DNA of 64,000 nucleotides. It comes from Pycnococcus provasolii (taxonomy: Eukaryota > Chlorophyta > Pseudoscourfieldiophyceae > Pseudoscourfieldiales > Pycnococcaceae). Shown piece after piece: positions 18,241 to 63,033 of the stretch (positions within the stretch are counted from its first letter, which is position 1; each line of letters starts with the position of its first letter). The translations under genes and the position numbers were made by a program. The stretch covers positions 124,001 to 188,000 of the forward strand of contig OW568892.1 in NCBI GenBank assembly GCA_938743325.2, read 5' to 3'. The notes under the pieces are model-generated. The model was given only the letters and a program-made list of their open reading frames with translations. It did no database searches and was not told the origin of the DNA.

Positions 18241-19295
18241 GATTGCTGAGCAAGTCAGTCATGGAGTGTACTTTTAATAACTACCTTTACAGTACCTACT
18301 TTGTACAACGGACGGTCGTCCAGTCACACGATTCACATGACACGAGACTCATCTTCGTTGTCGAAGTTTCCCCTGGGCCCCAACCCCTATCCCCCAACCC
18401 CTAAAGAAGCTCGATTTGATATTTTTCCTTCATCAGGCAAAAGGGCGACCCCGGGGAAACGTGGCGCACTCTCCTTGCTTCCCGCTTCTTCGCGCCGCCG
18501 CCAGTAGTCCTGTAGTCTGGTCTGGGGAACCGGATGTACCACCTACGTTGGAGTCTACCTTTCCTAAAGATAAAGGTTATGTTGCGCGCGTGTCTCTCCC
18601 CAATCCCCACCCTTCCTCTATCGTAGGGTACCCGTACCGTGGTAGCGAGGAGGCGAGTCCCTTCCGACCCGTTTCCGACTTTCCGTTCCGTTTCTCTCTT
18701 CTCCCTCCCTATTATCCTGCCTGAGATCTCAAGCTACCTTCCGACACAACACACAAGGGCAAGGGGGGGAAGAAGGCGGGAAGGCAAGGCAGAAAGGGGG
18801 AAGAACGAGCCCGCCTCGCTTTTCTTCTGTCGACTCCCACCACAAGACAAGGGGGGGGGGGGGGGGGGGGGGGGGGAACGACGGAACGCAAAAACGGCGT
18901 AATGCAAGGGCGTTCGCACTGGGCGAAATGCAAGGGCGAAATGCAAGGGCGAAACAAGGGCGAAAGGTCTGCTTGTGGAGTTTGGGGGTTTGACAACCAG
19001 CACTGATTGGATTGGGGTTTGGAACAGGTCGGCCGAATCCGTCCCCACTTGCGACAAGTGTGCTCCCACGACCACAGGGGTACATTTATACACGCGCGCA
19101 TCACCGTCTAGATAGACGTATCGGCGCAGCGCAGCAGCACATCGTGGCGTCGGCGTACCACGTACCACGTACCACAACACTTACTTCTGTGCCTCTCGCT
19201 CCTCTCATCCTTCCCATCTCTCAGCACTTGCACAGGTTCACATCCTGTCACTTCAGCTTGTGACCAGTCTTTTGCTTTCAGGCAGTGAGTGAGTG
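18241..19295. other. Spacer and probable promoter of the giant gene
   Basis: No gene is supported. It contains a 26-base G-run (18851-18876), three GGGCGAAATGCAA-like units (about 18918-18966) and a triple GTACCAC repeat (about 19156-19176) about 120 bp before the giant gene. The remainder is C/T-rich on one strand without clear motifs. Confidence 0.5.
18851..18876 (+). repeat. Poly-G tract (26 G)
   Basis: The 26-base uninterrupted G homopolymer can form G-quadruplexes and is prone to length error. Short GGGCGAAA repeats follow within 50-90 bp. Confidence 0.9.
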
Positions 19296-19634
19296 ATGGC
19301 GCCGACATCACGGACATCATCGACGACGTCGCGACGACGACGCGGCTGGCGCACGAAGTGGCTAGACGACGACGTGCCAGAATCAAGTCTAGCAAACGGC
19401 TCGCCGCCCTGGCGAACCAATAATCCCACGATGCAAGACACGTTCTTGCAGCTTACAGACCCGTCAAAAGACTGCGACAGTCTTAAGAAAAAGGCCGACG
19501 ACGGCCACGGCGGCGGCGCGTGCCAGATCGCACGACGACGACGACGACGCGCGACGTCAAACGAGTGTGGCGAACATGTCGCGACGAAAAAGTTATGCAC
19601 ACTCGGATTTTTTGCTTGCAGCTTAACGACGACG

Positions 19635-19667
<33 letters not shown>

Positions 19668-22600
19668 AGCGTCGTCGACGGCGGCGGCGGCGGCCGCGGC
19701 GGCGATGGTGGCGGCGAGCAGAAGCCAACACCGCATCGTCGTCGCAGGCAATGCTATCGACGCGCTGGTATCTCTCTGATGCATAGCAAGAGCTGCACAC
19801 TTCTAACGCGTGCGTGGATGCTGCTTCTTGTGGCATACGTATCGCTCATTCCCGTTGCTTTCACGGGGATGCGCCTCGAGAAGGGTGTGACGCGCAGCGG
19901 CTTTGTCAGCCAGGGCTTCTACAAGTACTACCACGTCGAGGTGGCATGCCCAGAGGCGGCACAGGAGGTCACCTTCCACGTCGTTGCGACAAACGGAGAC
20001 CCAGACCTGTACGTCAGCCAGACGGCGCAGCAGCCCAGCGCACACCTGTACACGTGGTTAAGCAGTTCAACGAACGCGTCCGAGACGATCCGCATTAGTA
20101 CGCCGAGCAGCGGCATGTACTACCTTGGCGTGCATGGCAAGACGACTGCCACGTTCAAGATTCAGGCGCTCATGAAGATGTACTCTGGAAAACACATGTG
20201 CCAAGGCTTCCGTATCGACGACCAGGCACTCGCCGATGATCCGGCGGACGGCTCGTTCCTCCTCGAGAACCGAATGACTGTCGCGGGCAACGTGGACTTG
20301 CAGGCTAGCCTGCACGTGAAAGACGACGCGGTGCTCGGCGATACCATGGATGACCTCAATATTTTGAAGGGACGGGCAATACTTGGGACATACTCCACGC
20401 AGGAGTACACCATGCACCGCGAGGATGTCACCGCGCTCGACGGAGGTGGTCTGACACTGCGAGCCGCCTTCTCGTACGGAGCACGAGGTGGCGATCTCAC
20501 GCTCAACGCAGGTAATGGAACCGGAGGTGGAGGTGGAGCAGTGTTCCTCATGGCTGGTAATAGCACACGTGGGCCGGGAGGACACCTCATGCTGCGCACA
20601 GGCTTTGGCGTTGGATTGCATGATCAGCTCATCGGTGGTGCTGGTGGAAACTTCAGCCTAAACCTTGGAGATGGTGACACGGGAAATGCGGGTAATGTTT
20701 CAATCGTTGCAGGGTTGACTACGGACGCACACAGCACTGGTGGAGCCGTGACAATTATGGCCGGCGATGGGATGAATGCAACGCGTGGTCGAGGCGGCAC
20801 CATGACGCTCGCCGCTGGCCATGGTCTCGGAACGGGCAGCGACTGTGAGCTGACATCCTACTGCTGCGTGCGCAAACCTGTGCGGACTGGCAGTCACATC
20901 ACAAAGGAATTTTGGACTACACTGACCACAAACAGTCCAAACTACTGCGAGGGTGTCGTCGTCACGGCGGAACAATATAACGCCGTGCTACGCGGATGCG
21001 ATGTGGACTGTGCAATTTCCGCCGAAGAGGCAGCATCAGTATCCTCGTCGGCGGCGTCGACGACCGATGCATCGAGTTCATTTTACGGCTTGGACACGAC
21101 TACGGTCACCCCAGTCACCACCACCACCACCGCCACTGGCACCACCACCAATCCACTCGCCGAGCTCTACTACATGTGTGGAACGCTTCCCGTTCGAAAG
21201 GATTTGTACGACGCCATTCGCGTGGGCTGCACTCAATTTTGCATGGGAGGAGCAGTCGAGGTGTTTGGTGGTAACTCCACCGGCGGTGTTGGTGGACTCG
21301 TTCATCTCGTCGGCGGATCATCGCACGCCAGCGATGTCATGGGCCACGGCGGTGATGTGTGGGTGGAGGCAGGCTCCGCATACGCCGGCACGGGAGGATC
21401 TCTCTACCTGACCTCGGGCAGATCGACGAACGCTACAAGTGGCAGCGTCGTAATCCGCACCGAATCAAGCGGAGCTTACGGTGTTTCGGGCGACGTTGCT
21501 CTGCAGACTGGAAGCTCGTGCAACGGCGACAGCGGTGCTATTCAGCTCTTCACAGGCGTCGCCGTCAACGGATCTGGAGGTGATCTCAGCCTTCACGTCG
21601 GCGCTGGCGACACCGGAGCCGGTGGCAGCGTCAATGTCGAGGCTGGCGCTACCTCAGCTGACAGCGAATCAGGCGGATCCGTTTTCGTCACCGCCGGCGC
21701 AGGCACGAGCACTATCGGAGGTCGTGGCGGCAACGTTGCGATCTCGGCTGGTGATGCGTATGGTGCTTCAAATACTGTTAACGGGGTTGCCGTACGCAGA
21801 AAACTGCTGGACATATCAGACTGCAACGGCGGTGCCGGTGGTATCACAGACTGTGGAGACGGCGGCGCGGTGGAGATCAATGCAGGGCGTGCCATCGGTG
21901 GAACAGGAGGCGGTGTGCACGTTTCAGGAGGATTCTCTGAACAGGGAATGGGTGGACACACGATTGTTCAAGGAGGAGGTTCCAAGGCTGGATACGGTGG
22001 AGATCTAGTGCTTGATGCAGGTGACAGCGAAGACGGCAATGAGGGTATCGTACGCATAGCATCAAATGCCGGCAGCCACATTCGAATGGGGCGAAGCAGG
22101 GTGCGAATGGTACCGGTGGACATCTTTGGTGATTTGATGGTTCACGGCGTCTTCGCGGCGACATCGGAGAAGGTGTACAAAGAATCGTACACTGACTTGA
22201 TTACACTGACGCAGTCGCAAAGCGTTGTTCTGCAAAATGAAATTCGAACCCCGAGGCTCACAGGCCTGGATCTCGAGGATGACTTGCAAGATGTACCAAC
22301 AAGCAACTTAGTCATTGATGCAGGCCTGGGGGGAACGGAAAAGCGCCTGTACATTGGCCCGATCGATACTTCAGGCATACATATAGGTGGACGCGTTGGA
22401 TCAGACATCTTGATCAGGCAGGGTTATTTGGTAGATGACGACAATGGCACGTACGACAAGCGCATAGAAGTTGACAACTACGGCGCCATCGTAATTTCAA
22501 CTTCAGGAGACTACATCGTCGACCCGCAGGCTCCTTGGGGAGACCGGCCTTACTTGAGGAGTGCACATGATCACGGCCATCCATTCCAGTATGGCGGAAA

Positions 22601-25600
22601 TCTCACGCTACGGACAGGTAGCTCCAACTTTGGACCGTCAGGAAACATTGACATCTTGACTGGTAAATCTCGCAATGGAGCAGGAGGCAACATTTCAGTA
22701 GTCGTCGGCATCGGAAATTATGGCGACGGGGGTAATGTGACCGTGCGTGCAGGTACAACGACATATGATGGAGGGCAAGGCGGAGTCGTAGCTATCTATG
22801 GTGGCAATAGTCTTGGAACTCATGGATACGCACCCGAGCATTTGAACGACGGTGTTAATAATGATGACTGCGCCGTCCACGAGTACTGTTGTGGGCAGGA
22901 AAGTCGCTGGAGTGCAACAGTCGGCGCGGGTGCGAACAAAGCAGTAGGATACTGCACAGGAATTTTAGTTCCTGCTGTTGCATACAGGGCCATAATCCGT
23001 GGTTGCCTGCAGGCTTGTGACTTTTATGGATACTTCCTTTGCGACGGAATTCATATCACCGATGAGCAATTCTATGCTGTGCGCAACCTACAATGTGATC
23101 AGCATTGTCTTGGAGGAAATGTCGATCTCAAGGGTGGCACCTCACATGCAGGAACAGGAGGTCATATTCGTTTGCATGGAGGTCTATCAGAATCAGAGCT
23201 CGCAAACAGCTTCGGAGGCGACTTAATCCTTGATGGAGGTTCTGCAAGGCAAGGAACAGGCGGTTCTGTCGTAATATCAAGCGGACACTCATCATACGCA
23301 GCGAGTGGAGACGTCATCATCCGCACAGAGATCAGCGCAAGACTCACAACTGGAAAAATCGACATGACAACAGGGTCCGCATGCGATGGAGACAGTGGTT
23401 CGATTCTACTCGCAACTGGAACAGCAACAAACGGTAAAGCTGGAAATATCACAATTCGCGCCGGATATGGTAATGCGAATGACGGAGGAGCTATCTCTGT
23501 GATCGGAGGAACAACCGCAGATGCGACCGCGGCGAACGCGATGGGCGGCGCGATCGAGGTGACGGGCGGCTCTGCGACGAGCGCGCTCGGAGGCATCGGT
23601 GGCGGCGTTTCGGTGTCTGCAGGCTACGGCGCGGACACGGGCGGCGCGGTGGTAGTGTCTGGCGGCGCAGGCGCCTCGGGCGACAGCGGCGACGTGATCG
23701 TGCTCACGCCTGATGCGGGCACGAGCGGCGTGAGCGGCGCCTTGTCCCTGACGAGCGGCGCGTCGACGGCAGGCCGCAGCGGCTCAGTGTCGGTGGTGAC
23801 GGGCGACGCCTCGGGCGGCGCTGCGGGCGACTTCACGGTGAGCGTCGGCGACGGCGACACCGGCGCGGGCGGTCTCGTGTCCTTGAGCGCGGGCGTGTCG
23901 ACGGCGGCCTTCGAGTCGGGCGGGCTTGTGTCCGTGTCCGGCGGATCTGGCGCGTCGTCTGAGGGCGGCCGCGGCGGCGTGGTGACGCTGTCTGGCGGCT
24001 CCTCGCTCGGCGAGACGGGCTGCGTGCTGACGGAGTACAACTGCAGCGGCGTGATCGTGCCTTCGACGGTGTACGAGGCTGTGAAGCGCGGATGCACGCG
24101 CGACTGCTCGTTCTACGGCGCGGACACGCACACGTTCATGTGCGGCACGATGCCGGTGAGCGCGGATGAGCACGCGCTTGTGCTCGGCGGATGCACGCAG
24201 TACTGCCTGGGCGGTGCCGTGGAGATGTCCGGCGGCGCCTCGTCTTCCGGCGTGGGTGGCGCGCTGACGCTTCTCGGCGGCTCGAGCTCGGGCGAGTCCG
24301 AGATGAGCCGCGGCGGCCACGTGGAGCTGGCGGCTGGCACGTCCGCGCGCGGCGTGGGCGGCAGCGTGCTTGTGAGCTCCGGCTTCAGCGAGACGGGCAC
24401 GAGCGGCGAGGTGATCGTACGCAGCGATCGCTCGGGCGTATCGGGCACGAGCGGCGCGGTGCTTGTTGCGTCCGGCCAGTCATGCGCGGGCGACAGCGGG
24501 TCGCTGACGCTGATCAGCGGCGCGTCTACGGGCGGCGCTGGCGGCGACATTCGCGTGGCGGTTGGCTCGGGCGACACGGGCGACGGCGGCTCAGTGGTTG
24601 TGAGCGCTGGCGACACGAGCGCCTCGTACGCGAGCGGCGGCGACGTGTTCGTGAGCGCGGGCACCGGCACGGACACGACGAGCGGCTCTGGCGGCTCCGT
24701 GAGCGTGCTCGGCGGTGAGGCGCTGGGCGAGACGGAGGGCGCGGGCGGCTCTGTGAGCGTGCTTGGCGGTCAGTCCGTGGGCGGCGTGGGCGGCAGCGTA
24801 TCTGTGGTGAGCGGCCGCAGCGTGACAGGCACGAGCGGATCCGTGCTCGTGCACACGCAGGACGCGGGCGTGTCGGGCACGAGCGGTCCCGTGACTGTGG
24901 AGACGGGCACGTCTTCGGCGGGCGCTTCGGGCGCGGTGCACGTGACCACGGGCGACGCGCGCGGCGGCGCCGGCGGCGACATCGCCGTGCGCGTGGGCGC
25001 GGGCGACACGGGTCCTGGCGGCGTGCTGACGCTGTCTGCGGGCCTGACGACCGCGGCGAACGCGACGGGCGGCGCGATCGAGGTGACGGGCGGCTCTGCG
25101 ACGAGCGCGCTCGGAGGCATCGGTGGCGGCGTTTCGGTGTCTGCAGGCTACGGCGCGGACACGGGCGGCGCGGTGGTAGTGTCTGGCGGCGCAGGCGCCT
25201 CGGGCGACAGCGGCGACGTGATCGTGCTCACGCCTGATGCGGGCACGAGCGGCGTGAGCGGCGCCTTGTCCCTGACGAGCGGCGCGTCGACGGCAGGCCG
25301 CAGCGGCTCAGTGTCGGTGGTGACGGGCGACGCCTCGGGCGGCGCTGCGGGCGACTTCACGGTGAGCGTCGGCGACGGCGACACCGGCGCGGGCGGTCTC
25401 GTGTCCTTGAGCGCGGGCGTGTCGACGGCGGCCTTCGAGTCGGGCGGGCTTGTGTCCGTGTCCGGCGGATCTGGCGCGTCGTCTGAGGGCGGCCGCGGCG
25501 GCGTGGTGACGCTGTCTGGCGGCTCCTCGCTCGGCGAGACGGGCTGCGTGCTGACGGAGTACAACTGCAGCGGCGTGATCGTGCCTTCGACGGTGTACGA

Positions 25601-28600
25601 GGCTGTGAAGCGCGGATGCACGCGCGACTGCTCGTTCTACGGCGCGGACACGCACACGTTCATGTGCGGCACGATGCCGGTGAGCGCGGATGAGCACGCG
25701 CTTGTGCTCGGCGGATGCACGCAGTACTGCCTGGGCGGTGCCGTGGAGATGTCCGGCGGCGCCTCGTCTTCCGGCGTGGGTGGCGCGCTGACGCTTCTCG
25801 GCGGCTCGAGCTCGGGCGAGTCCGAGATGAGCCGCGGCGGCCACGTGGAGCTGGCGGCTGGCACGTCCGCGCGCGGCGTGGGCGGCAGCGTGCTTGTGAG
25901 CTCCGGCTTCAGCGAGACGGGCACGAGCGGCGAGGTGATCGTACGCAGCGATCGCTCGGGCGTATCGGGCACGAGCGGCGCGGTGCTTGTTGCGTCCGGC
26001 CAGTCATGCGCGGGCGACAGCGGGTCGCTGACGCTGATCAGCGGCGCGTCTACGGGCGGCGCTGGCGGCGACATTCGCGTGGCGGTTGGCTCGGGCGACA
26101 CGGGCGACGGCGGCTCAGTGGTTGTGAGCGCTGGCGACACGAGCGCCTCGTACGCGAGCGGCGGCGACGTGTTCGTGAGCGCGGGCACCGGCACGGACAC
26201 GACGAGCGGCTCTGGCGGCTCCGTGAGCGTGCTCGGCGGTGAGGCGCTGGGCGAGACGGAGGGCGCGGGCGGCTCTGTGAGCGTGCTTGGCGGTCAGTCC
26301 GTGGGCGGCGTGGGCGGCAGCGTATCTGTGGTGAGCGGCCGCAGCGTGACAGGCACGAGCGGATCCGTGCTCGTGCACACGCAGGACGCGGGCGTGTCGG
26401 GCACGAGCGGTCCCGTGACTGTGGAGACGGGCACGTCTTCGGCGGGCGCTTCGGGCGCGGTGCACGTGACCACGGGCGACGCGCGCGGCGGCGCCGGCGG
26501 CGACATCGCCGTGCGTGTGGGCGCGGGCGACACGGGTCCTGGCGGCGTGCTGACGCTGTCTGCGGGCCTGACGACCGCGGCGAACGCGACGGGCGGCGCG
26601 ATCGAGGTGACGGGCGGCTCTGCGACGAGCGCGCTCGGAGGCATCGGTGGCGGCGTTTCGGTGTCTGCAGGCTACGGCGCGGACACGGGCGGCGCGGTGG
26701 TAGTGTCTGGCGGCGCAGGCGCCTCGGGCGACAGCGGCGACGTGATCGTGCTCACGCCTGATGCGGGCACGAGCGGCGTGAGCGGCGCCTTGTCCCTGAC
26801 GAGCGGCGCGTCGACGGCAGGCCGCAGCGGCTCAGTGTCGGTGGTGACGGGCGACGCCTCGGGCGGCGCTGCGGGCGACTTCACGGTGAGCGTCGGCGAC
26901 GGCGACACCGGCGCGGGCGGTCTCGTGTCCTTGAGCGCGGGCGTGTCGACGGCGGCCTTCGAGTCGGGCGGGCTTGTGTCCGTGTCCGGCGGATCTGGCG
27001 CGTCGTCTGAGGGCGGCCGCGGCGGCGTGGTGACGCTGTCTGGCGGCTCCTCGCTCGGCGAGACGGGCTGCGTGCTGACGGAGTACAACTGCAGCGGCGT
27101 GATCGTGCCTTCGACGGTGTACGAGGCTGTGAAGCGCGGATGCACGCGCGACTGCTCGTTCTACGGCGCGGACACGCACACGTTCATGTGCGGCACGATG
27201 CCGGTGAGCGCGGATGAGCACGCGCTTGTGCTCGGCGGATGCACGCAGTACTGCCTGGGCGGTGCCGTGGAGATGTCCGGCGGCGCCTCGTCTTCCGGCG
27301 TGGGTGGCGCGCTGACGCTTCTCGGCGGCTCGAGCTCGGGCGAGTCCGAGATGAGCCGCGGCGGCCACGTGGAGCTGGCGGCTGGCACGTCCGCGCGCGG
27401 CGTGGGCGGCAGCGTGCTTGTGAGCTCCGGCTTCAGCGAGACGGGCACGAGCGGCGAGGTGATCGTACGCAGCGATCGCTCGGGCGTATCGGGCACGAGC
27501 GGCGCGGTGCTTGTTGCGTCCGGCCAGTCATGCGCGGGCGACAGCGGGTCGCTGACGCTGATCAGCGGCGCGTCTACGGGCGGCGCTGGCGGCGACATTC
27601 GCGTGGCGGTTGGCTCGGGCGACACGGGCGACGGCGGCTCAGTGGTTGTGAGCGCTGGCGACACGAGCGCCTCGTACGCGAGCGGCGGCGACGTGTTCGT
27701 GAGCGCGGGCACCGGCACGGACACGACGAGCGGCTCTGGCGGCTCCGTGAGCGTGCTCGGCGGTGAGGCGCTGGGCGAGACGGAGGGCGCGGGCGGCTCT
27801 GTGAGCGTGCTTGGCGGTCAGTCCGTGGGCGGCGTGGGCGGCAGCGTATCTGTGGTGAGCGGCCGCAGCGTGACAGGCACGAGCGGATCCGTGCTCGTGC
27901 ACACGCAGGACGCGGGCGTGTCGGGCACGAGCGGTCCCGTGACTGTGGAGACGGGCACGTCTTCGGCGGGCGCTTCGGGCGCGGTGCACGTGACCACGGG
28001 CGACGCGCGCGGCGGCGCCGGCGGCGACATCGCCGTGCGCGTGGGCGCGGGCGACACGGGTCCTGGCGGCGTGCTGACGCTGTCTGCGGGCCTGACGACC
28101 GCGGCGAACGCGACGGGCGGCGCGATCGAGGTGACGGGCGGCTCTGCGACGAGCGCGCTCGGAGGCATCGGTGGCGGCGTTTCGGTGTCTGCAGGCTACG
28201 GCGCGGACACGGGCGGCGCGGTGGTAGTGTCTGGCGGCGCAGGCGCCTCGGGCGACAGCGGCGACGTGATCGTGCTCACGCCTGATGCGGGCACGAGCGG
28301 CGTGAGCGGCGCCTTGTCCCTGACGAGCGGCGCGTCGACGGCAGGCCGCAGCGGCTCAGTGTCGGTGGTGACGGGCGACGCCTCGGGCGGCGCTGCGGGC
28401 GACTTCACGGTGAGCGTCGGCGACGGCGACACCGGCGCGGGCGGTCTCGTGTCCTTGAGCGCGGGCGTGTCGACGGCGGCCTTCGAGTCGGGCGGGCTTG
28501 TGTCCGTGTCCGGCGGATCTGGCGCGTCGTCTGAGGGCGGCCGCGGCGGCGTGGTGACGCTGTCTGGCGGCTCCTCGCTCGGCGAGACGGGCTGCGTGCT

Positions 28601-31600
28601 GACGGAGTACAACTGCAGCGGCGTGATCGTGCCTTCGACGGTGTACGAGGCTGTGAAGCGCGGATGCACGCGCGACTGCTCGTTCTACGGCGCGGACACG
28701 CACACGTTCATGTGCGGCACGATGCCGGTGAGCGCGGATGAGCACGCGCTTGTGCTCGGCGGATGCACGCAGTACTGCCTGGGCGGTGCCGTGGAGATGT
28801 CCGGCGGCGCCTCGTCTTCCGGCGTGGGTGGCGCGCTGACGCTTCTCGGCGGCTCGAGCTCGGGCGAGTCCGAGATGAGCCGCGGCGGCCACGTGGAGCT
28901 GGCGGCTGGCACGTCCGCGCGCGGCGTGGGCGGCAGCGTGCTTGTGAGCTCCGGCTTCAGCGAGACGGGCACGAGCGGCGAGGTGATCGTACGCAGCGAT
29001 CGCTCGGGCGTATCGGGCACGAGCGGCGCGGTGCTTGTTGCGTCCGGCCAGTCATGCGCGGGCGACAGCGGGTCGCTGACGCTGATCAGCGGCGCGTCTA
29101 CGGGCGGCGCTGGCGGCGACATTCGCGTGGCGGTTGGCTCGGGCGACACGGGCGACGGCGGCTCAGTGGTTGTGAGCGCTGGCGACACGAGCGCCTCGTA
29201 CGCGAGCGGCGGCGACGTGTTCGTGAGCGCGGGCACCGGCACGGACACGACGAGCGGCTCTGGCGGCTCCGTGAGCGTGCTCGGCGGTGAGGCGCTGGGC
29301 GAGACGGAGGGCGCGGGCGGCTCTGTGAGCGTGCTTGGCGGTCAGTCCGTGGGCGGCGTGGGCGGCAGCGTATCTGTGGTGAGCGGCCGCAGCGTGACAG
29401 GCACGAGCGGATCCGTGCTCGTGCACACGCAGGACGCGGGCGTGTCGGGCACGAGCGGTCCCGTGACTGTGGAGACGGGCACGTCTTCGGCGGGCGCTTC
29501 GGGCGCGGTGCACGTGACCACGGGCGACGCGCGCGGCGGCGCCGGCGGCGACATCGCCGTGCGCGTGGGCGCGGGCGACACGGGTCCTGGCGGCGTGCTG
29601 ACGCTGTCTGCGGGCCTGACGACCGCGGCGAACGCGACGGGCGGCGCGATCGAGGTGACGGGCGGCTCTGCGACGAGCGCGCTCGGAGGCATCGGTGGCG
29701 GCGTTTCGGTGTCTGCAGGCTACGGCGCGGACACGGGCGGCGCGGTGGTAGTGTCTGGCGGCGCAGGCGCCTCGGGCGACAGCGGCGACGTGATCGTGCT
29801 CACGCCTGATGCGGGCACGAGCGGCGTGAGCGGCGCCTTGTCCCTGACGAGCGGCGCGTCGACGGCAGGCCGCAGCGGCTCAGTGTCGGTGGTGACGGGC
29901 GACGCCTCGGGCGGCGCTGCGGGCGACTTCACGGTGAGCGTCGGCGACGGCGACACCGGCGCGGGCGGTCTCGTGTCCTTGAGCGCGGGCGTGTCGACGG
30001 CGGCCTTCGAGTCGGGCGGGCTTGTGTCCGTGTCCGGCGGATCTGGCGCGTCGTCTGAGGGCGGCCGCGGCGGCGTGGTGACGCTGTCTGGCGGCTCCTC
30101 GCTCGGCGAGACGGGCTGCGTGCTGACGGAGTACAACTGCAGCGGCGTGATCGTGCCTTCGACGGTGTACGAGGCTGTGAAGCGCGGATGCACGCGCGAC
30201 TGCTCGTTCTACGGCGCGGACACGCACACGTTCATGTGCGGCACGATGCCGGTGAGCGCGGATGAGCACGCGCTTGTGCTCGGCGGATGCACGCAGTACT
30301 GCCTGGGCGGTGCCGTGGAGATGTCCGGCGGCGCCTCGTCTTCCGGCGTGGGTGGCGCGCTGACGCTTCTCGGCGGCTCGAGCTCGGGCGAGTCCGAGAT
30401 GAGCCGCGGCGGCCACGTGGAGCTGGCGGCTGGCACGTCCGCGCGCGGCGTGGGCGGCAGCGTGCTTGTGAGCTCCGGCTTCAGCGAGACGGGCACGAGC
30501 GGCGAGGTGATCGTACGCAGCGATCGCTCGGGCGTATCGGGCACGAGCGGCGCGGTGCTTGTTGCGTCCGGCCAGTCATGCGCGGGCGACAGCGGGTCGC
30601 TGACGCTGATCAGCGGCGCGTCTACGGGCGGCGCTGGCGGCGACATTCGCGTGGCGGTTGGCTCGGGCGACACGGGCGACGGCGGCTCAGTGGTTGTGAG
30701 CGCTGGCGACACGAGCGCCTCGTACGCGAGCGGCGGCGACGTGTTCGTGAGCGCGGGCACCGGCACGGACACGACGAGCGGCTCTGGCGGCTCCGTGAGC
30801 GTGCTCGGCGGTGAGGCGCTGGGCGAGACGGAGGGCGCGGGCGGCTCTGTGAGCGTGCTTGGCGGTCAGTCCGTGGGCGGCGTGGGCGGCAGCGTATCTG
30901 TGGTGAGCGGCCGCAGCGTGACAGGCACGAGCGGATCCGTGCTCGTGCACACGCAGGACGCGGGCGTGTCGGGCACGAGCGGTCCCGTGACTGTGGAGAC
31001 GGGCACGTCTTCGGCGGGCGCTTCGGGCGCGGTGCACGTGACCACGGGCGACGCGCGCGGCGGCGCCGGCGGCGACATCGCCGTGCGTGTGGGCGCGGGC
31101 GACACGGGTCCTGGCGGCGTGCTGACGCTGTCTGCGGGCCTGACGACCGCGGCGAACGCGACGGGCGGCGCGATCGAGGTGACGGGCGGCTCTGCGACGA
31201 GCGCGCTCGGAGGCATCGGTGGCGGCGTTTCGGTGTCTGCAGGCTACGGCGCGGACACGGGCGGCGCGGTGGTAGTGTCTGGCGGCGCAGGCGCCTCGGG
31301 CGACAGCGGCGACGTGATCGTGCTCACGCCTGATGCGGGCACGAGCGGCGTGAGCGGCGCCTTGTCCCTGACGAGCGGCGCGTCGACGGCAGGCCGCAGC
31401 GGCTCAGTGTCGGTGGTGACGGGCGACGCCTCGGGCGGCGCTGCGGGCGACTTCACGGTGAGCGTCGGCGACGGCGACACCGGCGCGGGCGGTCTCGTGT
31501 CCTTGAGCGCGGGCGTGTCGACGGCGGCCTTCGAGTCGGGCGGGCTTGTGTCCGTGTCCGGCGGATCTGGCGCGTCGTCTGAGGGCGGCCGCGGCGGCGT

Positions 31601-46600: not shown

Positions 46601-49600
46601 CGACGGTGGCGAGCGGATCGACGCTGGACGTGTCGAGCACGGGCGCTGCGACAGTGACGAGCGGATCGACGCTCGATGTGTCGAGCACAGCGGCTGCGAC
46701 AGTGACGAGCGGATCGACGCTCGGCGTGACAGTGGCGACCGACGCGACGGTATCTGCGGGCGGCGACGTGTCGATGACGAGCACGGGCAAGACGACTGTG
46801 ACGTCGACCGGCTCCGACATCTCGGTGTCGGCGCCGAGCGCAGACGCGAAGGTGTCGATCGCGTCCGGCGGCTCGACGACGGTGACGAGCGGCGACGACG
46901 TCGACGTCATCGCGGATGACGCAGTGACGATCACGTCAGGTACGGGCGGCATGCGTCTGCAGTCGACTGGCCAGCTGGCCGCGTCGTTCTACGGCGCGGT
47001 GCAGCTGAGCAGCACGACCGGACCGATGTCCCTGAGCACGGGCGCGGGTGGCGCATCGCTGGTGTCGCTGGGCGCGGTCCTCGTGGACGCTGACGGCTCT
47101 GGCACAGGCGGCCTCGAGGTCCGCGCCGGCGCATCGGGCGTGGACGTGGACGCGGTCGGCGACGTGTCAGTGACGAGCGATGCGTCGGTGAGCATGACGA
47201 GCGCGGCATCGACGACGGTGACGAGCGGATCGACGCTGGACGTGTCGAGCGTGGGCGCCGCGACGGTGGCGAGCGGATCGACGCTGGACGTGTCGAGCAC
47301 GGGCGCCGCGACGGTGGCAAGCGGATCGACGCTGGACGTGTCGAGCACGGGCGCCGCGACAGTGGCGAGCGGATCGACGCTCGATGTGTCGAGCACGGGC
47401 GCTGCGACAGTGACGAGCGGATCGACGCTCGATGTGTCGAGCACAGCGGCTGCGACAGTGACGAGCGGATCGACGCTCGGCGTGACAGTGGCGACCGACG
47501 CGACGGTATCTGCGGGCGGCGACGTGTCGATGACGAGCACGGGCAAGACGACAGTGACGTCGACCGGCTCCGACATCTCGGTGTCGGCGCCGAGCGCAGA
47601 CGCGAAGGTGTCGATCGCGTCCGGCGGCTCGACGACGGTGACGAGCGGCGACGACGTCGACGTCATCGCGGAGGACGCAGTGACGATCACGTCAGGTACG
47701 GGCGGCATGCGTCTGCAGTCGACTGGCCAGCTGGCCGCGTCGTTCTACGGCGCGGTGCAGCTGAGCACCACGACCGGACCGATGTCCCTGAGCACGGGCG
47801 CGGGTGGCGCATCGCTGGTGTCGCTGGGCGCGGTCCTCGTGGACGCTGACGGCTCTGGCACAGGCGGCCTCGAGGTCCGCGCCGGCGCATCGGGCGTGGA
47901 CGTGGACGCGGTCGGCGACGTGTCAGTGACGAGCGATGCGTCGGTGAGCATGACGAGCGCGGCATCGACGACGGTGACGAGCGGATCGACGCTGGACGTG
48001 TCGAGCGTGGGCGCCGCGACGGTGGCGAGCGGATCGACGCTGGACGTGTCGAGCACGGGCGCCGCGACGGTGACGAGCGGATCGACGCTGGACGTGTCGA
48101 GCACGGGCGCCGCGACAGTGGCGAGCGGATCGACGCTGGACGTGTCGAGCACGGGCGCTGCGACAGTGACGAGCGGATCGACGCTCGATGTGTCGAGCAC
48201 GGGCGCTGCGACAGTGACGAGCGGATCGACGCTCGGCGTGACAGTGGCGACCGACGCGACGGTATCTGCGGGCGGCGACGTGTCGATGACGAGCACGGGC
48301 AAGACGACTGTGACGTCGACCGGCTCCGACATCTCGGTGTCGGCGCCGAGCGCAGACGCGAAGGTGTCGATCGCGTCCGGCGGCTCGACGACGGTGACGA
48401 GCGGCGACGACGTCGACGTCATCGCGGATGACGCAGTGACGATCACGTCAGGTACGGGCGGCATGCGTCTGCAGTCGACTGGCCAGCTGGCCGCGTCGTT
48501 CTACGGCGCGGTGCAGCTGAGCAGCACGACCGGACCGATGTCCCTAAGCACGGGCGCGGGTGGCGCATCGCTTGTGTCGCTGGGCGCGGTCCTCGTGGAC
48601 GCTGACGGCTCTGGCACAGGCGGTCTCGAGGTCCGCGCCGGCGCATCGGGCGTGGACGTGGACGCGGTCGGCGACGTGTCAGTGACGAGCGATGCGTCGG
48701 TGAGCATGACGAGCGCGGCATCGACGACGGTGACGAGCGGATCGACGCTGGACGTGTCGAGCGTGGGCGCCGCGACGGTGGCGAGCGGATCGACGCTGGA
48801 CGTGTCGAGCACGGGCGCCGCGACGGTGACGAGCGGATCGACGCTGGACGTGTCGAGCACGGGCGCCGCGACGGTGGCGAGCGGATCGACGCTGGACGTG
48901 TCGAGCACGGGCGCTGCGACAGTGACGAGCGGATCGACGCTCGATGTGTCGAGCACGGGCGCCGCGACAGTGACGAGCGGATCGACGCTCGGCGTGACAG
49001 TGGCGACCGACGCGACGGTATCTGCGGGCGGCGACGTGTCGATGACGAGCACGGGCAAGACGACTGTGACGTCGACCGGCTCCGACATCTCGGTGTCGGC
49101 GCCGAGCGCAGACGCGAAGGTGTCGATCGCGTCCGGCGGCTCGACGACGGTGACGAGCGGCGACGACGTCGACGTCATCGCGGAGGACGCAGTGACGATC
49201 ACGTCAGGTACGGGCGGCATGCGTCTGCAGTCGACTGGCCAGCTGGCCGCGTCGTTCTACGGCGCGGTGCAGCTGAGCAGCACGACCGGACCGATGTCCC
49301 TGAGCACGGGCGCGGGTGGCGCGTCGCTGGTGTCGCTGGGCGCGGTCCTCGTGGATGCTGACGGCTCTGGCACAGGCGGCCTCGAGGTCCGCGCCGGCGC
49401 ATCGGGCGTGGACGTGGACGCGGTCGGCGACGTGTCAGTGACGAGCGATGCGTCGGTGAGCATGACGAGCGCGGCATCGACGACGGTGACGAGCGGATCG
49501 ACGCTGGACGTGTCGAGCGTGGGCGCCGCGACGGTGACGAGCGGATCGACGCTGGACGTGTCGAGCACGGGCGCCGCGACGATGGCGAGCGGATCGACGC

Positions 49601-52600
49601 TGGACGTGTCGAGCACGGGCGCTGCGACGGTGGCGAGCGGATCGACGCTGGACGTGTCGAGCACGGGCGCTGCGACAGTGACGAGCGGATCGACGCTCGA
49701 CGTGTCGAGCACAGCGGCTGCGACAGTGACGAGCGGATCGACGCTCGGCGTGACAGTGGCGACCGACGCGACGGTATCTGCGGGCGGCGACATGTCGATG
49801 ACGAGCACGGGCAAGACGACTGTGACGTCGACCGGCTCCGACATCTCGGTGTCGGCGCCGAGCGCAGACGCGAAGGTGTCGATCGCGTCCGGCGGCTCGA
49901 CGACGGTGACGAGCGGCGACGACGTCGACGTCATCGCGGATGACGCAGTGACGATCACGTCAGGTACGGGCGGCATGCGTCTGCAGTCGACTGGCCAGCT
50001 GGCCGCGTCGTTCTACGGCGCGGTGCAGCTGAGCAGCACGACCGGACCGATGTCCCTGAGCACGGGCGCGGGTGGCGCGTCGCTTGTGTCGCTGGGCGCG
50101 GTCCTCGTGGATGCTGACGGCTCTGGCACAGGCGGCCTCGAGGTCCGCGCCGGCGCATCGGGCGTGGACGTGGACGCGGTCGGCGACGTGTCAGTGACGA
50201 GCGATGCGTCGGTGAGCATGACGAGCGCGGCATCGACGACGGTGACGAGCGGATCGACGCTGGACGTGTCGAGCGTGGGCGCCGCGACGGTGACGAGCGG
50301 ATCGACGCTGGACGTGTCGAGCACGGGCGCCGCGACGATGGCGAGCGGATCGACGCTGGACGTGTCGAGCACGGGCGCTGCGACGGTGGCGAGCGGATCG
50401 ACGCTGGACGTGTCGAGCACGGGCGCCGCGACAGTGACGAGCGGATCGACGCTCGACGTGTCGAGCACAGCGGCTGCGACAGTGACGAGCGGATCGACGC
50501 TCGGCGTGACAGTGGCGACCGATGCGACGGTATCTGCGGGCGGCGACGTTTCGATGACGAGCACGGGCAAGACGACTGTGACGTCGACCGGCTCCGACAT
50601 CTCGGTGTCGGCGCCGAGCGCAGACGCGAAGGTGTCGATCGCGTCCGGCGGCTCGACGAGAGTGACGAGCGGCGACGACGTCGACGTCACCGCGGAGGAC
50701 GCAGTGACGATCACGTCAGGTACGGGCGGCATGCGTTTGGAGTCGACTGGCCAGCTGGCCGCGTCGTTCTACGGCGCGGTGCAGCTGAGCAGCACGACCG
50801 GACCGATGTCCCTGAGCACGGGCGCGGGTGGCGCGTCGCTTGTGTCGCTGGGCGCGGTCCTCGTGGACGCTGACGGCTCTGGCACAGGCGGTCTCGAGGT
50901 CCGCGCCGGCGCATCGGGCGTGGACGTGGACGCGGTCGGCGACGTGTCAGTGACGAGCGATGCGTCGGTGAGCATGACGAGCGCGGCATCGACGACGGTG
51001 ACGAGCGGATCGACGCTGGACGTGTCGAGCGTGGGCGCCGCGACGGTGACGAGCGGATCGACGCTGGACGTGTCGAGCGTGGGCGCCACGACGGTGGCGA
51101 GCGGATCGACGCTCGACGTGTCGAGCACGGGCGCTGCGACGGTGGCGAGCGGATCGACGCTGGACGTGTCGAGCACGGCGGCTGCGACAGTGACGAGCGG
51201 ATCGACGCTCGATGTGTCGAGCACGGCGGCTGCGACAGTGACGAGCGGATCGACGCTCGGCGTGACAGTGGCGACCGATGCGACGGTATCTGCGGGCGGC
51301 GACGTGTCGATGACGAGCACGGGCAAGACGACTGTGACGTCGACCGGCTCCGACATCTCGGTGTCGGCGCCGAGCGCAGACGCGAAGGTGTCGATCGCGT
51401 CCGGCGGCTCGACGACGGTGACGAGCGGCGACGACGTCGACGTCACCGCGGAGGACGCAGTGACGATCACGTCAGGTACGGGCGGCATGCGTCTGCAGTC
51501 GACTGGCCAGCTGGCCGCGTCGTTCTACGGCGCGGTGCAGCTGAGCAGCACGACCGGACCGATGTCCCTGAGCACGGGCGCGGGCGGCGCATCGCTGGTG
51601 TCGCTGGGCGCGGTCCTCGTGGACGCTGACGGCTCTGGCACAGGCGGCCTCGAGGTCCGCGCCGGCGCATCGGGCGTGGACGTGGACGCGGTCGGCGACG
51701 TGTCAGTGACGAGCGATGCGTCGGTGAGCATGACGAGCGCGGCATCGACGACGGTGACGAGCGGATCGACGCTGGACGTGTCGAGCGTGGGCGCCGCGAC
51801 GGTGACGAGCGGATCGACGCTGGACGTGTCGAGCACGGGCGCCGCGACGGTGGCGAGCGGATCGACGCTGGACGTGTCGAGCACGGGCGCTGCGACGGTG
51901 GCGAGCGGATCGACGCTGGACGTGTCGAGCACGGGCGCTGCGACAGTGACGAGCGGATCGACGCTCGATGTGTCGAGCACGGGCGCTGCGACAGTGACGA
52001 GCGGATCGACGCTCGGCGTGACAGTGGCGACCGACGCGACGGTATCTGCGGGCGGCGACATGTCGATGACGAGCACGGGCAAGACGACTGTGACGTCGAC
52101 CGGCTCCGACATCTCGGTGTCGGCGCCGAGCGCAGACGCGAAGGTGTCGATCGCGTCCGGCGGCTCGACGACGGTGACGAGCGGCGACGACGTCGACGTC
52201 ATCGCGGAGGACGCAGTGACGATCACGTCAGGTACGGGCGGCATGCGTCTGCAGTCGACTGGCCAGCTGGCCGCGTCGTTCTACGGCGCGGTGCAGCTGA
52301 GCAGCACGACCGGACCGATGTCCCTGAGCACGGGCGCAGGTGGCGCGTCGCTTGTGTCGCTGGGCGCGGTCCTCGTGGATGCTGACGGCTCTGGCACAGG
52401 CGGCCTCGAGGTCCGCGCCGGCGCATCGGGCGTGGACGTGGACGCGGTCGGCGACGTGTCAGTGACGAGCGATGCGTCGGTGAGCATGACGAGCGCGGCA
52501 TCGACGACGGTGACGAGCGGATCGACGCTGGACGTGTCGAGCGTGGGCGCCGCGACGGTGACGAGCGGATCGACGCTGGACGTGTCGAGCACGGGCGCCG

Positions 52601-55600
52601 CGACGGTGGCGAGCGGATCGACGCTGGACGTGTCGAGCACGGGCGCTGCGACGGTGGCGAGCGGATCGACGCTGGACGTGTCGAGCACGGGCGCTGCGAC
52701 AGTGACGAGCGGATCGACGCTCGACGTGTCGAGCACAGCGGCTGCGACAGTGACGAGCGGATCGACGCTCGGCGTGACAGTGGCGACCGATGCGACGGTA
52801 TCTGCGGGCGGCGACGTTTCGATGACGAGCACGGGCAAGACGACTGTGACGTCGACCGGCTCCGACATCTCGGTGTCGGCGCCGAGCGCAGACGCGAAGG
52901 TGTCGATCGCGTCCGGCGGCTCGACGAGAGTGACGAGCGGCGACGACGTCGACGTCACCGCGGAGGACGCAGTGACGATCACGTCAGGTACGGGCGGCAT
53001 GCGTTTGGAGTCGACTGGCCAGCTGGCCGCGTCGTTCTACGGCGCGGTGCAGCTGAGCAGCACGACCGGACCGATGTCCCTGAGCACGGGCGCGGGTGGC
53101 GCGTCGCTTGTGTCGCTGGGCGCGGTCCTCGTGGACGCTGACGGCTCTGGCACAGGCGGCCTCGAGGTCCGCGCCGGCGCATCGGGCGTGGACGTGGACG
53201 CGGTCGGCGACGTGTCAGTGACGAGCGATGCGTCGGTGAGCATGACGAGCGCGGCATCGACGACGGTGACGAGCGGATCGACGCTGGACGTGTCGAGCGT
53301 GGGCGCCGCGACGGTGACGAGCGGATCGACGCTGGACGTGTCGAGCACGGGCGCCGCGACGGTGGCGAGCGGATCGACGCTGGACGTGTCGAGCACGGGC
53401 GCTGCGACGGTGGCGAGCGGATCGACGCTGGACGTGTCGAGCACGGCGGCTGCGACAGTGACGAGCGGATCGACGCTCGATGTGTCGAGCACGGCGGCTG
53501 CGACAGTGACGAGCGGATCGACGCTCGGCGTGACAGTGGCGACCGACGCGACGGTATCTGCGGGCGGCGACGTGTCGATGACGAGCACGGGCAAGACGAC
53601 TGTGACGTCGACCGGCTCCGACATCTCGGTGTCGGCGCCGAGCGCAGACGCGAAGGTGTCGATCGCGTCCGGCGGCTCGACGACGGTGACGAGCGGCGAC
53701 GACGTCGACGTCACCGCGGAGGACGCAGTGACGATCACGTCAGGTACGGGCGGCATGCGTTTGGAGTCGACTGGCCAGCTGGCCGCGTCGTTCTACGGCG
53801 CGGTGCAGCTGAGCAGCACGACCGGACCGATGTCCCTGAGCACGGGCGCGGGTGGCGCGTCGCTTGTGTCGCTGGGCGCGGTCCTCGTGGACGCTGACAG
53901 CTCTGGCACAGGCGGCCTCGAGGTCCGCGCCGGCGCATCGGGCGTGGACGTGGACGCGGTCGGCGACGTGTCAGTGACGAGCGATGCGTCGGTGAGCATG
54001 ACGAGCGCGGCATCGACGACGGTGACGAGCGGATCGACGCTGGACGTGTCTAGCACGGGCGCCGCGACGGTGGCGAGCGGATCGACGCTGGACGTGTCGA
54101 GCGTGGGTGCCACGACGGTGGCGAGCGGATCGACGCTCGACGTGTCGAGCACGGGCGCTGCGACGGTGGCGAGCGGATCGACGCTCGATGTGTCGAGCAC
54201 GGGCGCTGCGACAGTGACGAGCGGATCGACGCTCGACGTGTCGAGCACAGCGGCTGCGACAGTGACGAGCGGATCGACGCTCGGCGTGACAGTGGCGACC
54301 GACGCGACGGTATCTGCGGGCGGCGACGTGTCGATGACGAGCACGGGCAAGACGACTGTGACGTCGACCGGCTCCGACATCTCGGTGTCGGCGCCGAGCG
54401 CAGACGCGAAGGTGTCGATCGCGTCCGGCGGCTCGACGACGGTGACGAGCGGCGACGACGTCGACGTCACCGCGGAGGACGCAGTGACGATCACGTCAGG
54501 TACGGGCGGCATGCGTTTGGAGTCGACTGGCCAGCTGGCCGCGTCGTTCTACGGCGCGGTGCAGCTGAGCAGCACGACCGGACCGATGTCCCTGAGCACG
54601 GGCGCGGGTGGCGCGTCGCTTGTGTCGCTGGGCGCGGTCCTCGTGGACGCTGACGGCTCTGGCACAGGCGGCCTCGAGGTCTGCGCCGGCGCATCGGGCG
54701 TGGACGTGGACGCGGTCGGCGACGTGTCAGTGACAAGCGATGCGTCGGTGAGCATGACGAGCGCGGCATCGACGACGGTGACGAGCGGATCGACGCTGGA
54801 CGTGTCGAGCACGGGCGCCGCGACGGTGGCGAGCGGATCGACGCTGGACGTGTCGAGCACGGGCGCTGCGACGGTGGCGAGCGGATCGACGCTGGACGTG
54901 TCGAGCACGGGCGCTGCGACGGTGGCGAGCGGATCGACGCTCGATGTGTCGAGCACGGCGGCTGCGACAGTGACGAGCGGATCGACGCTCGATGTGTCGA
55001 GCACAGCGGCTGCGACAGTGACGAGCGGATCGACGCTCGGCGTGACAGTGGCGACCGATGCGACGGTATCTGCGGGCGGCGACGTGTCGATGACGAGCAC
55101 GGGCAAGACGACTGTGACGTCGACCGGCTCCGACATCTCGGTGTCGGCGCCGAGCGCAGACGCGAAGGTGTCGATCGCGTCCGGCGGCTCGACGACGGTG
55201 ACGAGCGGCGACGACGTCGACGTCATCGCGGAGGACGCAGTGACGATCACGTCAGGTACGGGCGGCATGCGTTTGGAGTCGACTGGCCAGCTGGCCGCGT
55301 CGTTCTACGGCGCGGTGCAGCTGAGCAGCACGACCGGACCGATGTCCCTAAGCACGGGCGCGGGTGGCGCGTCGCTTGTGTCGCTGGGCGCGGTCCTCGT
55401 GGACGCTGACGGCTCTGGCACAGGCGGCCTCGAGGTCCGCGCCGGCGCATCGGGCGTGGACGTGGACGCGGTCGGCGACGTGTCAGTGACGAGCGATGCG
55501 TCGGTGAGCATGACGAGCGCGGCATCGACGACGGTGACGAGCGGATCGACGCTGGACGTGTCTAGCACGGGCGCCGCGACGGTGACGAGCGGATCGACGC

Positions 55601-57372
55601 TGGACGTGTCGAGCGTGGGTGCTGCGACGGTGGCGAGCGGATCGACGCTGGACGTGTCGAGCGTGGGCGCTGCGACGGTGGCGAGCGGATCGACGCTCGA
55701 TGTGTCGAGCACGGCGGCTGCGACAGTGACGAGCGGATCGACGCTCGATGTGTCGAGCACAGCGGCTGCGACAGTGACGAGCGGATCGACGCTCGGCGTG
55801 ACAGTGGCGACCGACGCGACGGTATCTGCGGGCGGCGACGTGTCGATGACGAGCACGGGCAAGACGACTGTGACGTCGACCGGCTCCGACATCTCGGTGT
55901 CGGCGCCGAGCGCAGACGCGAAGGTGTCGATCGCGTCCGGCGGCTCGACGACGGTGACGAGCGGCGACGACGTCGACGTCATCGCGGAGGACGCAGTGAC
56001 GATCACGTCAGGTACGGGCGGCATGCGTTTGGAGTCGACTGGCCAGCTGGCCGCGTCGTTTTATGGTTTAGTCTCGATTTTGAGTACTGATGACGATGTT
56101 GATATTCGAAGTGGTGGGTCGTCGCTTTCAATGGATGCTGGTTCTACCCAATATGCTGGCGTGGTTGCTATAGCTTCGAATTATGCGAGCAAGGTTAGAA
56201 TTGGCTCGGAGGGAACTTCGAGTGGCAAGGTGCAGTCTGACTTCTTTGGTGATGTCACTGTGCATGGTAATTTGGTTATCACTGATGAACTTACATATGA
56301 AGAGCATTACGCTTCGAAAGTTCATATAACTAATGAGCAAGATCTGATTGTTCAGCAACAAATTCGAGCGCCGTTTTTGACTGGCTTAGACACGGAGGAT
56401 GTTGACTCGACGAGGTCTTCGGATTTGCGGCTTGACTCTGGATCTGGCGGCACGTCGCACAAGATTTTAATTGGTTCGTTGAATGCAAAGGATGGAGTTG
56501 AAATAGGTGGCGTCTCTGGTGCGCCAATTGAGCTTAAGCAAGGCTCTGGTGACGAGGACAAGCGGTTTGCTGTAAATTCAGATGGGTCGGTGAGTGTTAG
56601 AAGCGCATATGGAAGTTCTCTTTCTATTGCAGATGATTATGGAAATGGAACAGTCAGCATTGCTTCGTCTGGATCTCGGAGCGTCGAGATCGGCTCAAAG
56701 GCAAGCACTGAAGTTTCGCTTTCTGCACGCTCAATTTCGCTTTCGGCAGACGACGATGCGAGCAGTGGAGGTGAAGTTAAGATCGACGGCGGTGACGGGT
56801 ATGAATCGATTGACGGTGGTGACGTTGAGCTTCTTGGTGGGTCCTTCTACGGCATGACGTACGGTGACATGCAGCGTTCCGCCGGTAATGTTCGCCTTGA
56901 CGGTGGAGCAAGCAGCACGGCGCAAGGTGGCAGTGTGATCATGCGTGCTGGTTCAGGTTACAAAGGTGACGCGAATGGACAAGTTAAGCTGCAAGACGCT
57001 GACGGGACGAGCAGACTCGAGGTGCAGGCGAATGGTACGATACGTAGCCACGGCGCCATGGACATGCAAGATAATTCGGGGGTTACGCGTTTTGCGGTCC
57101 AGTCGAACGGCGTTCTTCGCATGTCTGGTGCATACACGATGGAGCAAGTCAGTGCGTCTATGACTGTTCCCAGCGACGCGTCGGTTTACGTTATTTATGG
57201 CAATCTCGGCTCAAGTTTTCAGGTGAGTGCGCCATCTGGAACAGATTTCGTAGATGGGCAAATGATCATGGTGATCAATTCATCGAATAGGTGGTCGACG
57301 GGAGACGTAAACACTGTTGCCGGTGGAACGCGGTGGTTGATCTATGTTGCTGCGGAGGGTCGTTGGTTCTAA
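19296..57372 (+). CDS. Giant secreted or surface repeat protein, about 12,700 codons
   Basis: One frame runs from ATG 19296 to TAA 57372, broken only by a 200-N gap (42706-42905) and one extra C at 43387-43388. The frame shift lies within 500 bp of the gap inside a repeat, and coding resumes at once, so it is probably a sequence error. Order: low-complexity Arg/Asp/Gly N-terminus; hydrophobic segment at about residues 174-187 (WMLLLVAYVSLIPVAF), a signal peptide if translation starts at ATG 19779, otherwise a signal anchor; PPC-like domain at about 191-295 (GDPDLYVS, YYLGVHG); diverged GG-rich units with Cys motifs; first linker module; array R1 (23547-31730); second linker module; array R2 (33498-56057); third linker module; unique C-terminus ending LIYVAAEGRWF. 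The Gly/Ser/Val/Thr alternation suggests stacked beta strands, as in adhesins or beta-helical fibres. No C-terminal membrane anchor is seen. I do not recognise the full protein; an adhesive or cell-covering role is inference. Confidence 0.88.
19779..19868 (+). other. Signal peptide or signal anchor of the giant protein
   Basis: The ATG at 19779 opens MHSKSCTLLTRAW followed by MLLLVAYVSLIPVAFTG: a basic n-region, a hydrophobic core of about 16 residues and a small-residue exit. This is a textbook signal peptide if this ATG is used. The 161 codons upstream are open but of low complexity, with poly-Asp and poly-Arg. An acceptor-like TTGCTTGCAG at about 19609-19619 raises the possibility that the true 5' structure is spliced. 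Confidence 0.55.
19867..20178 (+). other. PPC-like (pre-peptidase C-terminal) domain
   Basis: Within the giant protein, GFYKYYHVEV, then GDPDLYVSQTA, an aromatic/Ser stretch (YTWLSSS), then SSGMYYLGVHG and TTATFKIQA follow the strand order of the PPC domain found at the ends of secreted bacterial and algal proteins. It directly follows the signal-like segment, which supports secretion. Confidence 0.65.
22045..22510 (+). repeat. Linker module M1 in the giant gene
   Basis: This encodes VDIFGDLMVHG, then RTPRLTGLDLEDD, VIDAGLGGT, LYIGPIDTSGIHIG and ILIRQG. The same order of motifs recurs at 32577-33060 and 56156-56680. The three copies are highly diverged in DNA but clearly homologous in protein. 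This one separates the first diverged GG-rich unit from the second. Confidence 0.8.
23547..31730 (+). repeat. Array R1: 1,524-bp coding tandem repeat, about 5.4 copies
   Basis: Units begin at about 23547, 25071, 26595, 28119, 29643 and 31167 (last one partial). Each unit encodes 508 residues of Gly/Ser-rich repeats (GGSVSVLGG, SGTSGAV, GDTGAGG types) and one Cys-rich insert (EYNCSGV, KRGCTRDCSFYG, FMCGTMPV, GGCTQYCLGG). The copies are almost identical at DNA level; one visible difference is C versus T at equivalent positions (T at 26516 and 31088; C at 24992, 28040 and 29564). GC content is much higher than in the homologous diverged units on either side. Confidence 0.95.
31731..32576 (+). 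repeat. Diverged R1-type unit at the right edge of array R1
   Basis: Protein motifs continue the R1 plan (GGDVALFGGES, GTSGQLLMQSG, GDSGSLTLVSG, GGSVVLSAG), but the DNA is AT-richer and differs at most third positions. It represents an unhomogenised flank. Similar diverged units lie left of the array at about 20440-22040 and 22600-23530. Confidence 0.8.
32577..33060 (+). repeat. Linker module M2 in the giant gene
   Basis: This encodes VRIGRSEVRQVQTDIFGD, VTIHG, RTPAITGLDPED, VDAGSGGTGALDIGP and VTIKQGEGD in the same order as M1 and M3. It stands between arrays R1 and R2. Confidence 0.8.
33498..56057 (+). repeat. Array R2: higher-order coding repeat, about 30 units
   Basis: Each unit is a 516-bp core (172 residues: STLGVTVATDATVSAGGDV, TSTGSDISVSAPSADAKVSI, GGMRLQSTGQLAASFYGAVQ, TGPMSLSTGAGGASLVSLGA, then ASGVDVDAVGDVSVTSDASV) plus 3-8 copies of a 48-bp, 16-residue subrepeat STLDVSS(T/V)GAATV(T/A)SG. 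Unit lengths are 660, 708, 756, 804 or 900 bp, that is 516 + 48n with n = 3 to 8. The left half is mostly 708 bp, the right half mostly 756 bp. All lengths keep the reading frame. The 200-N gap falls inside one unit, so the true copy number is unknown. Confidence 0.95.
42706..42905. other. Assembly gap (200 N) inside array R2
   Basis: The gap is exactly 200 N, a usual placeholder for a gap of unknown size. The sequence on the left ends at the start of the subrepeat block and resumes on the right at PMSLSTG of the core, so at least part of one unit is missing. Confidence 0.98.
56156..56680 (+). repeat. Linker module M3 in the giant gene
   Basis: This encodes SKVRIGSEG, SDFFGDVTVHG, RAPFLTGLDTED, RLDSGSGGT, ILIG and IELKQGSGDEDKRFAV, the third copy of the linker module. 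It stands between array R2 and the unique C-terminal region of about 230 residues. Confidence 0.8.

Positions 57373-63002: not shown

Positions 63003-63033
<31 letters not shown>

Follow-up and report, generated by a model that had tools for sequence, protein, structure and literature searches.

The nuclear genome of the green alga Pycnococcus provasolii holds a protein-coding gene, apparently with a single exon, that runs to about 12,500 codons as assembled. It lies in C32:124001-188000, the 64,000-nucleotide stretch of DNA analysed here (the window), in a host genome of 32.33 Mb in 46 contigs; the assembly, of P. provasolii CCAP190/2, is ucPycProv1.2 (PMC11130579). We hold it rather probable that the product is a secreted fibrous protein of the cell exterior, composed of a glycine-rich beta-solenoid and an octad beta shaft, with an array length set by recombination. 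The parts of the gene, in window coordinates, are as follows.

19779..57372, + strand: giant gene, apparently single-exon, 12,529 codons as assembled from the ATG at 19779 (67 of them within the N gap)
19779..19868, + strand: signal-peptide-like start (MHSKSCTLLTRAWMLLLVAYVSLIPVAFTG), containing the protein's only stretch above the hydropathy cut used
19950..20138, + strand: PPC-like stretch, Pfam PF04151, E 5.6e-4, below the cut-off
20433..23542, + strand: single-copy glycine-rich region with repeats of about 15 residues; of its two Cys-rich modules, one runs from 20844 and the other from 22869
21990..22572, + strand: joint module A (DIFGDLMVHG...TGLDLED), which has three copies in the gene
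23543..31732, + strand: array 1, in which a 508-aa unit with one Cys-rich module is present about 5.4 times
31733..33496, + strand: single-copy stretch in which part of the array-1 unit recurs in diverged form, together with joint module B and the first part of a diverged array-2 unit (26%)
32523-33101, + strand: joint module B, within that single-copy stretch
33497..56058, + strand: array 2, 29 units, in each of which about 169 aa are constant and the number of 16-aa repeats (SGSTLDVSSTGAATVT) varies
42706..42905, no strand: scaffold gap of 200 N inside array 2
43387..43388, + strand: one extra C relative to the neighbouring 48-base repeats, a frame break some 480 bases away from the gap
56092..56697, + strand: joint module C
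56059..57369, + strand: unique C-terminal region, without a stretch above the hydropathy cut

From stop to stop, the open frames occupy 19293-43751 (8,152 codons) and, shifted by one base, 43297-57372 (4,691 codons). The preliminary description had claimed continuous coding with one N gap and one base slip, and this is borne out: the frame is open over 19293-57372, interrupted only by the 200-N gap and, at about 43387, by one extra base, a single C in the repeat at 43384 that was located by lining up the 48-base inner repeats. That description began the gene at 19296, and on this point our reading departs from it. Among the in-frame ATGs (19296, 19431, 19779, 19818 and 19869), the probable start is the one at 19779, 161 codons downstream, where the signal-like segment sits, the protein's sole stretch above the hydropathy cut coming right after this ATG. 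The signal-like segment proposed earlier is present, in a position further along the frame. Codon usage is near neutral upstream of 19782 (0.02 bits per codon, vs 0.31 after it), with the long frame still the best of six; the hydropathy and codon-usage runs both began at 19782, one codon after the ATG. The predicted protein has a mass of 1.16 MDa, a pI of 4.05, 29 N-glycosylation sequons and 12,529 residues, an as-assembled length only, since the length of the 200-N gap is arbitrary. The giant size that had been claimed (about 12,700 codons) holds, with this lower count.

Two observations favor the earlier claim of one giant coding gene: its single-copy parts lack stops and its array-2 units are under constraint. 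Over the single-copy stretches 19782-23542, 31752-33653 and 56047-57369 the long frame has no stop in 2,328 codons (about 50 of which are codons of inner repeats), where a first-order random model predicts 43, 31 and 18, about 92 in total. The other five frames hold 10-53 stops each over the same parts, and the open frame is thus not a product of chance. By codon-usage score the long frame ranked first of six in all six gene stretches scored, with values near or below zero in three single-copy stretches (0.01, -0.04 and -0.13 bits per codon).

A second giant gene appears to be built of similar glycine-rich repeats. When the host genome was searched with the single-copy glycine-rich region, 73 matches were obtained, in the window gene, on C10 (218316-242121), on C28 (546195-549449) and on C6 (235713-236090). 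The C10 matches fall in an open frame of 8,944 codons (C10:217974-246237, minus strand), or 8,662 from a Met at codon 283, and here likewise the sole stretch above the hydropathy cut follows that Met. The C10 protein opens with a 1,170-aa region and continues with glycine-rich repeats, the last of them an array with 149 aa per unit (31 anchors) that reaches a 200-N gap; past the gap, the translations examined showed no C-terminal domain. The 1,170-aa region is single in the host genome, and it returned no relatives among 8,000 scored candidates in the protein search and no Pfam family at E up to 1. The joint module has three copies genome-wide, all in the window gene.

The C10 gene bears on how the frame slip should be interpreted. 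The assembly is described as built from 444-fold HiFi reads, with 50 contigs joined into 44 scaffolds and a stated quality of QV 58.2 (PMC11130579). These figures imply about six scaffold gaps, of which one lies inside the window gene and one in the related C10 gene. The C10 frame also slips, by one extra G about 1.2 kb from its gap. In both genes the slip lies near a scaffold gap (at about 0.5 and 1.2 kb), as expected for poorly supported contig ends, and we regard it as a probable artefact on the assembly side. Were the break genuine instead, the locus would comprise two genes or a decaying one, and only the first ~7,870 or the last ~4,660 codons would be translated. The extra C does stand in an assembly of that quality, and a metagenome sequence (P0002, see below) hints at a possible short form elsewhere. 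However, besides the position of the slips, the units on either side of the break belong to one repeat family and were pooled in the constraint test, and we judge a genuine break quite unlikely.

In array 1, successive copies of the 1,524-bp unit differ at 3 of 6,666 compared positions. Array 2 comprises 29 units anchored on AASFYGAVQL, with 141 inner 16-aa repeats counted; half of its 28 spacings (14) are 756 bp and ten are 708, with one each of 660, 804 and 900 and one of 1,357 that covers both the N gap and the slip. The two arrays of the preliminary description thus stand, as do its 508-aa units; its 172-aa unit is better described as a constant part (about 169 aa) with 16-aa repeats whose number varies.

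Pieces of the arrays were also found at eight other genomic places. Those from array 1 are a 3.3-kb piece on C28 (98.6% identity) and a degraded 0.5-kb piece on C6 (94.6%). Array-2 pieces of 0.86-1.15 kb, with best identities of 92.7-97.0% each, occur at six places: two on C34, in frame within related open frames that carry IQ/EF-hand-like sequence by our own reading; C11:880k and C3:64k, both in a segment that is duplicated and falls within a frame that we read as ABC-F-like; C11:823k; and C16, near the contig start. Two pairs of these six fragments are common through later segment duplication, and the other immediate flanks differ. On C28 (546.2-549.5k, L025-L026) the array-1 piece adjoins a methionine-synthase-like peptide, by our own reading of the translation. 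A separate repeat, with 75-82% identity by blast, is common to L026 (4267-5818 and 9256-9998), L039 (9202-10000) and L041 (9404-10000); on C28, C11 and C3 it lies about 2.7-3.7 kb from the array fragments.

Within array 2, 20 of 45 substitutions change the amino acid, vs 27.6 expected (P 0.011; 29 units, 161 codons each), and none of the 29 units contains a stop. A subset of 17 of the 29 units gave 13 amino-acid changes in 29 substitutions, vs 18.9 expected (P 0.016). These results should be read with some caution, since the reverse frame whose third positions face the coding third positions mirrors the constraint (21/44, P 0.021), as is expected from this geometry, and the test alone cannot separate the two; of the other five frames, it was the only one to give such a figure. 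The dispersed copies on C11 (two), C3 and C16 displayed no deficit, with 27 changes in 41 vs 29.2 expected and 3 stops, in a comparison of four copies with broken or short frames against the consensus of 17 array-2 units. For the in-frame C34 copies the figure was 19 of 44, vs 31.0 expected, which again looks like constraint; changes that predate their split from the array would look alike, and we give this figure no weight.

It could be argued that the arrays are mainly a selfish or neutral satellite expansion that keeps frame inside a shorter functional gene, giving length without function. The near identity of the units would agree with this, as would their extreme third-position GC and the scattering of pieces to eight other places, some in broken frames. 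The in-frame constraint on the constant part of array 2 and its 29 stop-free units count against it, and we find it unlikely as the main account; it is not, however, exclusive of the secreted-fibre explanation that we prefer.

Third-position GC separates the arrays from the rest of the gene. In 900-base windows the arrays give 0.83-0.89 (0.79 where the slip falls), vs 0.30-0.68 in windows that are mostly single-copy, with boundary windows between. When codons for the same amino acids were compared, array units reached 0.86-0.92, vs 0.28-0.53 in paralogous single-copy stretches, a contrast seen in 7/7 pairs from two genes, the pairs being hand-chosen and, with array units common to several, not independent. 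In the C10 gene the value rises on approach to the array and inside it, from 0.54 to 0.92, and is 0.68 in the N-terminal part; two nearby host genes have 0.69 and 0.71. Our preferred explanation is GC-biased conversion during homogenisation, which fits the very high third-position GC and would keep the units alike; a GC-biased founder unit may be an alternative source. The contrast, present in two genes, lets GC-biased conversion of coding DNA be tested cleanly in a natural setting.

Protein searches (5.8 billion proteins, 8,000 candidates scored each) yielded three proteins, of which two are near-identical and the third is a relative from a metagenome at about 50% identity; these searches rely on short exact words, so that distant relatives could be missed. 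No characterised relative of either giant gene was found in the searches made. The metagenome relative, P0003, shares 53% of 103 aligned residues with joint module A, and residues 2-144 of its 170 match window 21879-22307 at 50%, across glycine repeats and the joint module; its tail without a match is perhaps an intron or the gene end. Another metagenome protein, P0002, found on 2 contigs, fuses sequence like window 18534-18601 directly to about 56510, with some 37.9 kb missing. It may be a deletion allele, a gene-prediction artefact or a chimera, and there may be a form from which nearly all of the gene is absent. A literature search on giant proteins of prasinophytes, green algae, microalgae and Pycnococcus, with subscription papers mostly outside it, found no paper on these genes. 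As far as searched, the window and C10 genes are a new family, known in kind (giant repetitive surface proteins) and new in sequence and architecture.

Is the gene at home in the alga? Its setting is that of a green-alga nuclear gene, with a THO2-like neighbour gene and light-harvesting genes in the genome (51 matches to the family, and an Lhca3-like protein), which also holds a nuclear 18S rRNA gene with a group I intron (L035 1709-2054). A bacterial or viral adhesin or tail-fibre gene merely housed in the alga would account for PPC-like and DUF2345/VgrG-like likenesses, which belong to bacterial and phage families. Yet no relative was found in IMG/VR with the C-terminus, the joint alignment or a piece of array 1, in GTDB with a piece of array 1, or in phage records with the C-terminus, and the protein searches gave only the three proteins named above. 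Moreover, the codon usage of the arrays and of 19782-20432 matches two host genes, that of the other single-copy parts weakly. We therefore rejected the bacterial and the viral candidates within the databases searched, and consider a foreign origin very unlikely. In PHROGs, five pieces of the protein gave one match, to a tail-fibre family at E 0.9.

The secreted-fibre reading draws on periodicity and on weak profile matches. Glycine-rich parts show a 15-residue hydrophobic periodicity (z 4.7 and 5.5), and the spacing of the glycine-rich motif is 15 in 96 of 206 cases. In the constant part of array 2 the strongest lag is 8 (z 2.6), with lag 2 at z 2.5. The AlphaFold model of a piece of array 1 was poor overall (pLDDT 49, pTM 0.32); strands recur in it at intervals of about 15 residues, and its two small Cys modules, strand-strand-helix in form, have a block pLDDT of 58-78. 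The model of the C-terminal region was worse (pLDDT 38). The beta-rich repeats of the preliminary description agree with both periodicities and with the strands of the low-confidence array-1 model; with models this poor, the solenoid stays a putative fold.

The PPC domain claimed earlier appears as a weak match shortly after the signal-like segment, at 21.2 bits, below the gathering cut-off of 25.9. PPC normally adjoins peptidases; a Pfam scan of five pieces of the giant protein at E up to 1 listed no peptidase family, and no RTX family (PF00353, which we take to be the RTX nonapeptide repeat family). DUF2345 scored 20.8 and 23.1 bits, below its cut-off of 30.7, with E 3.6e-4 on one array-2 unit; seven shuffles gave no Pfam match. 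PDB sequence searches with pieces of the protein gave nothing better than E 0.026, a profile match of array 2 to the type VI secretion protein chain 6sjl, presumably VgrG. Octad-like beta repeats may be shared with the VgrG spike and the phage T4 gp5 needle (DUF2345, Gp5_trimer_C; PDB 6sjl). However, all scores lie below accepted cut-offs, the gene is algal and nuclear, and the protein looks secreted. VgrG and gp5 are trimers with interlocked strands; the predictions made here covered single chains. Together, the periodicities and sub-threshold matches point to a shaft-like beta structure and prove nothing.

Giant bacterial adhesins offer a second comparison. Cag_0614 of Chlorobium chlorochromatii, described as a giant adhesin of 36,805 aa, resembles our gene in giant size, internal repeats and a proposed role in cell-cell contact (PMC4053972). 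Such adhesins are described as haemagglutinin- or RTX-adhesin-like with calcium-binding domains (PMC4053972). The host here is a eukaryote. The RTX giant adhesin is a bacterial gene with calcium-binding nonapeptide repeats; the window gene is nuclear, and the scan of its five pieces listed none.

According to our explanation, the N-terminal segment would take the protein into the secretory pathway; an extracellular location is suggested by this one segment, hydrophobic by hydropathy. The product would be an acidic, extended fibre on the outside of the cell (wall, scale, flagellar hair or adhesive fibre). Its glycine-rich half would fold as a beta-solenoid with coils of about 15 residues, broken up by Cys-rich caps, and its second half an octad/16-residue beta shaft distantly like phage and T6SS needles, with the joint modules connecting segments. 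Protein length would follow array copy number, altered by unequal recombination. The textbook rise of a beta-solenoid is 0.48 nm per coil, which would give the two halves a length of some tenths of a micrometre. The cells are described as walled and 1.5-4 um in size (PMC11130579), and the Pycnococcaceae as with or without a scaly covering and cilia (PMC6492006). An acidic, Gly/Ser/Thr-rich secreted fibre fits such a wall or scaly covering, and a role as adhesin, scale or cell-covering protein is plausible in a family of walled or scaly algae. A compact picoplankton genome is not expected to keep two 27-38 kb genes for probable structural proteins, and both genes would give a direct handle on what builds the Pycnococcaceae cell covering.

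A bolder reading, rather doubtful though conceivable, is that prasinophytes of the Pycnococcaceae evolved needle- or fibre-like giants of their own, in which a glycine-rich solenoid of 15-residue coils is joined to an octad-repeat shaft with the working of phage or T6SS needles. On this reading the arrays are lengthened and made uniform by GC-biased recombination and donate in-frame segments of about 1 kb, as in the IQ/EF-hand-like C34 pair. If true, the array would be a source of new coding sequence for unrelated genes.

Several minor observations concern the surroundings. Immediately downstream of the giant gene, on the opposite strand, an ORF at 57691-58308 has a weak BAR-domain match, below cut-off. 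At 14188-14931 (minus strand) a short frame matches HATPase_c and may be a gene fragment or a split gene; to our reading it resembles the start of a DNA topoisomerase II. Two alike open stretches of 152 aa each (9490-9948 and 15657-16115) form a dispersed repeat inside the window, and tandem arrays with 83/444-bp units and a GCA-rich 55-bp array lie at 61238-62148 and 62960-63470. Elsewhere in the genome, C31:133-143k and C31:360-367k each hold a cluster of six light-harvesting-like matches with equal scores and mixed orientations.
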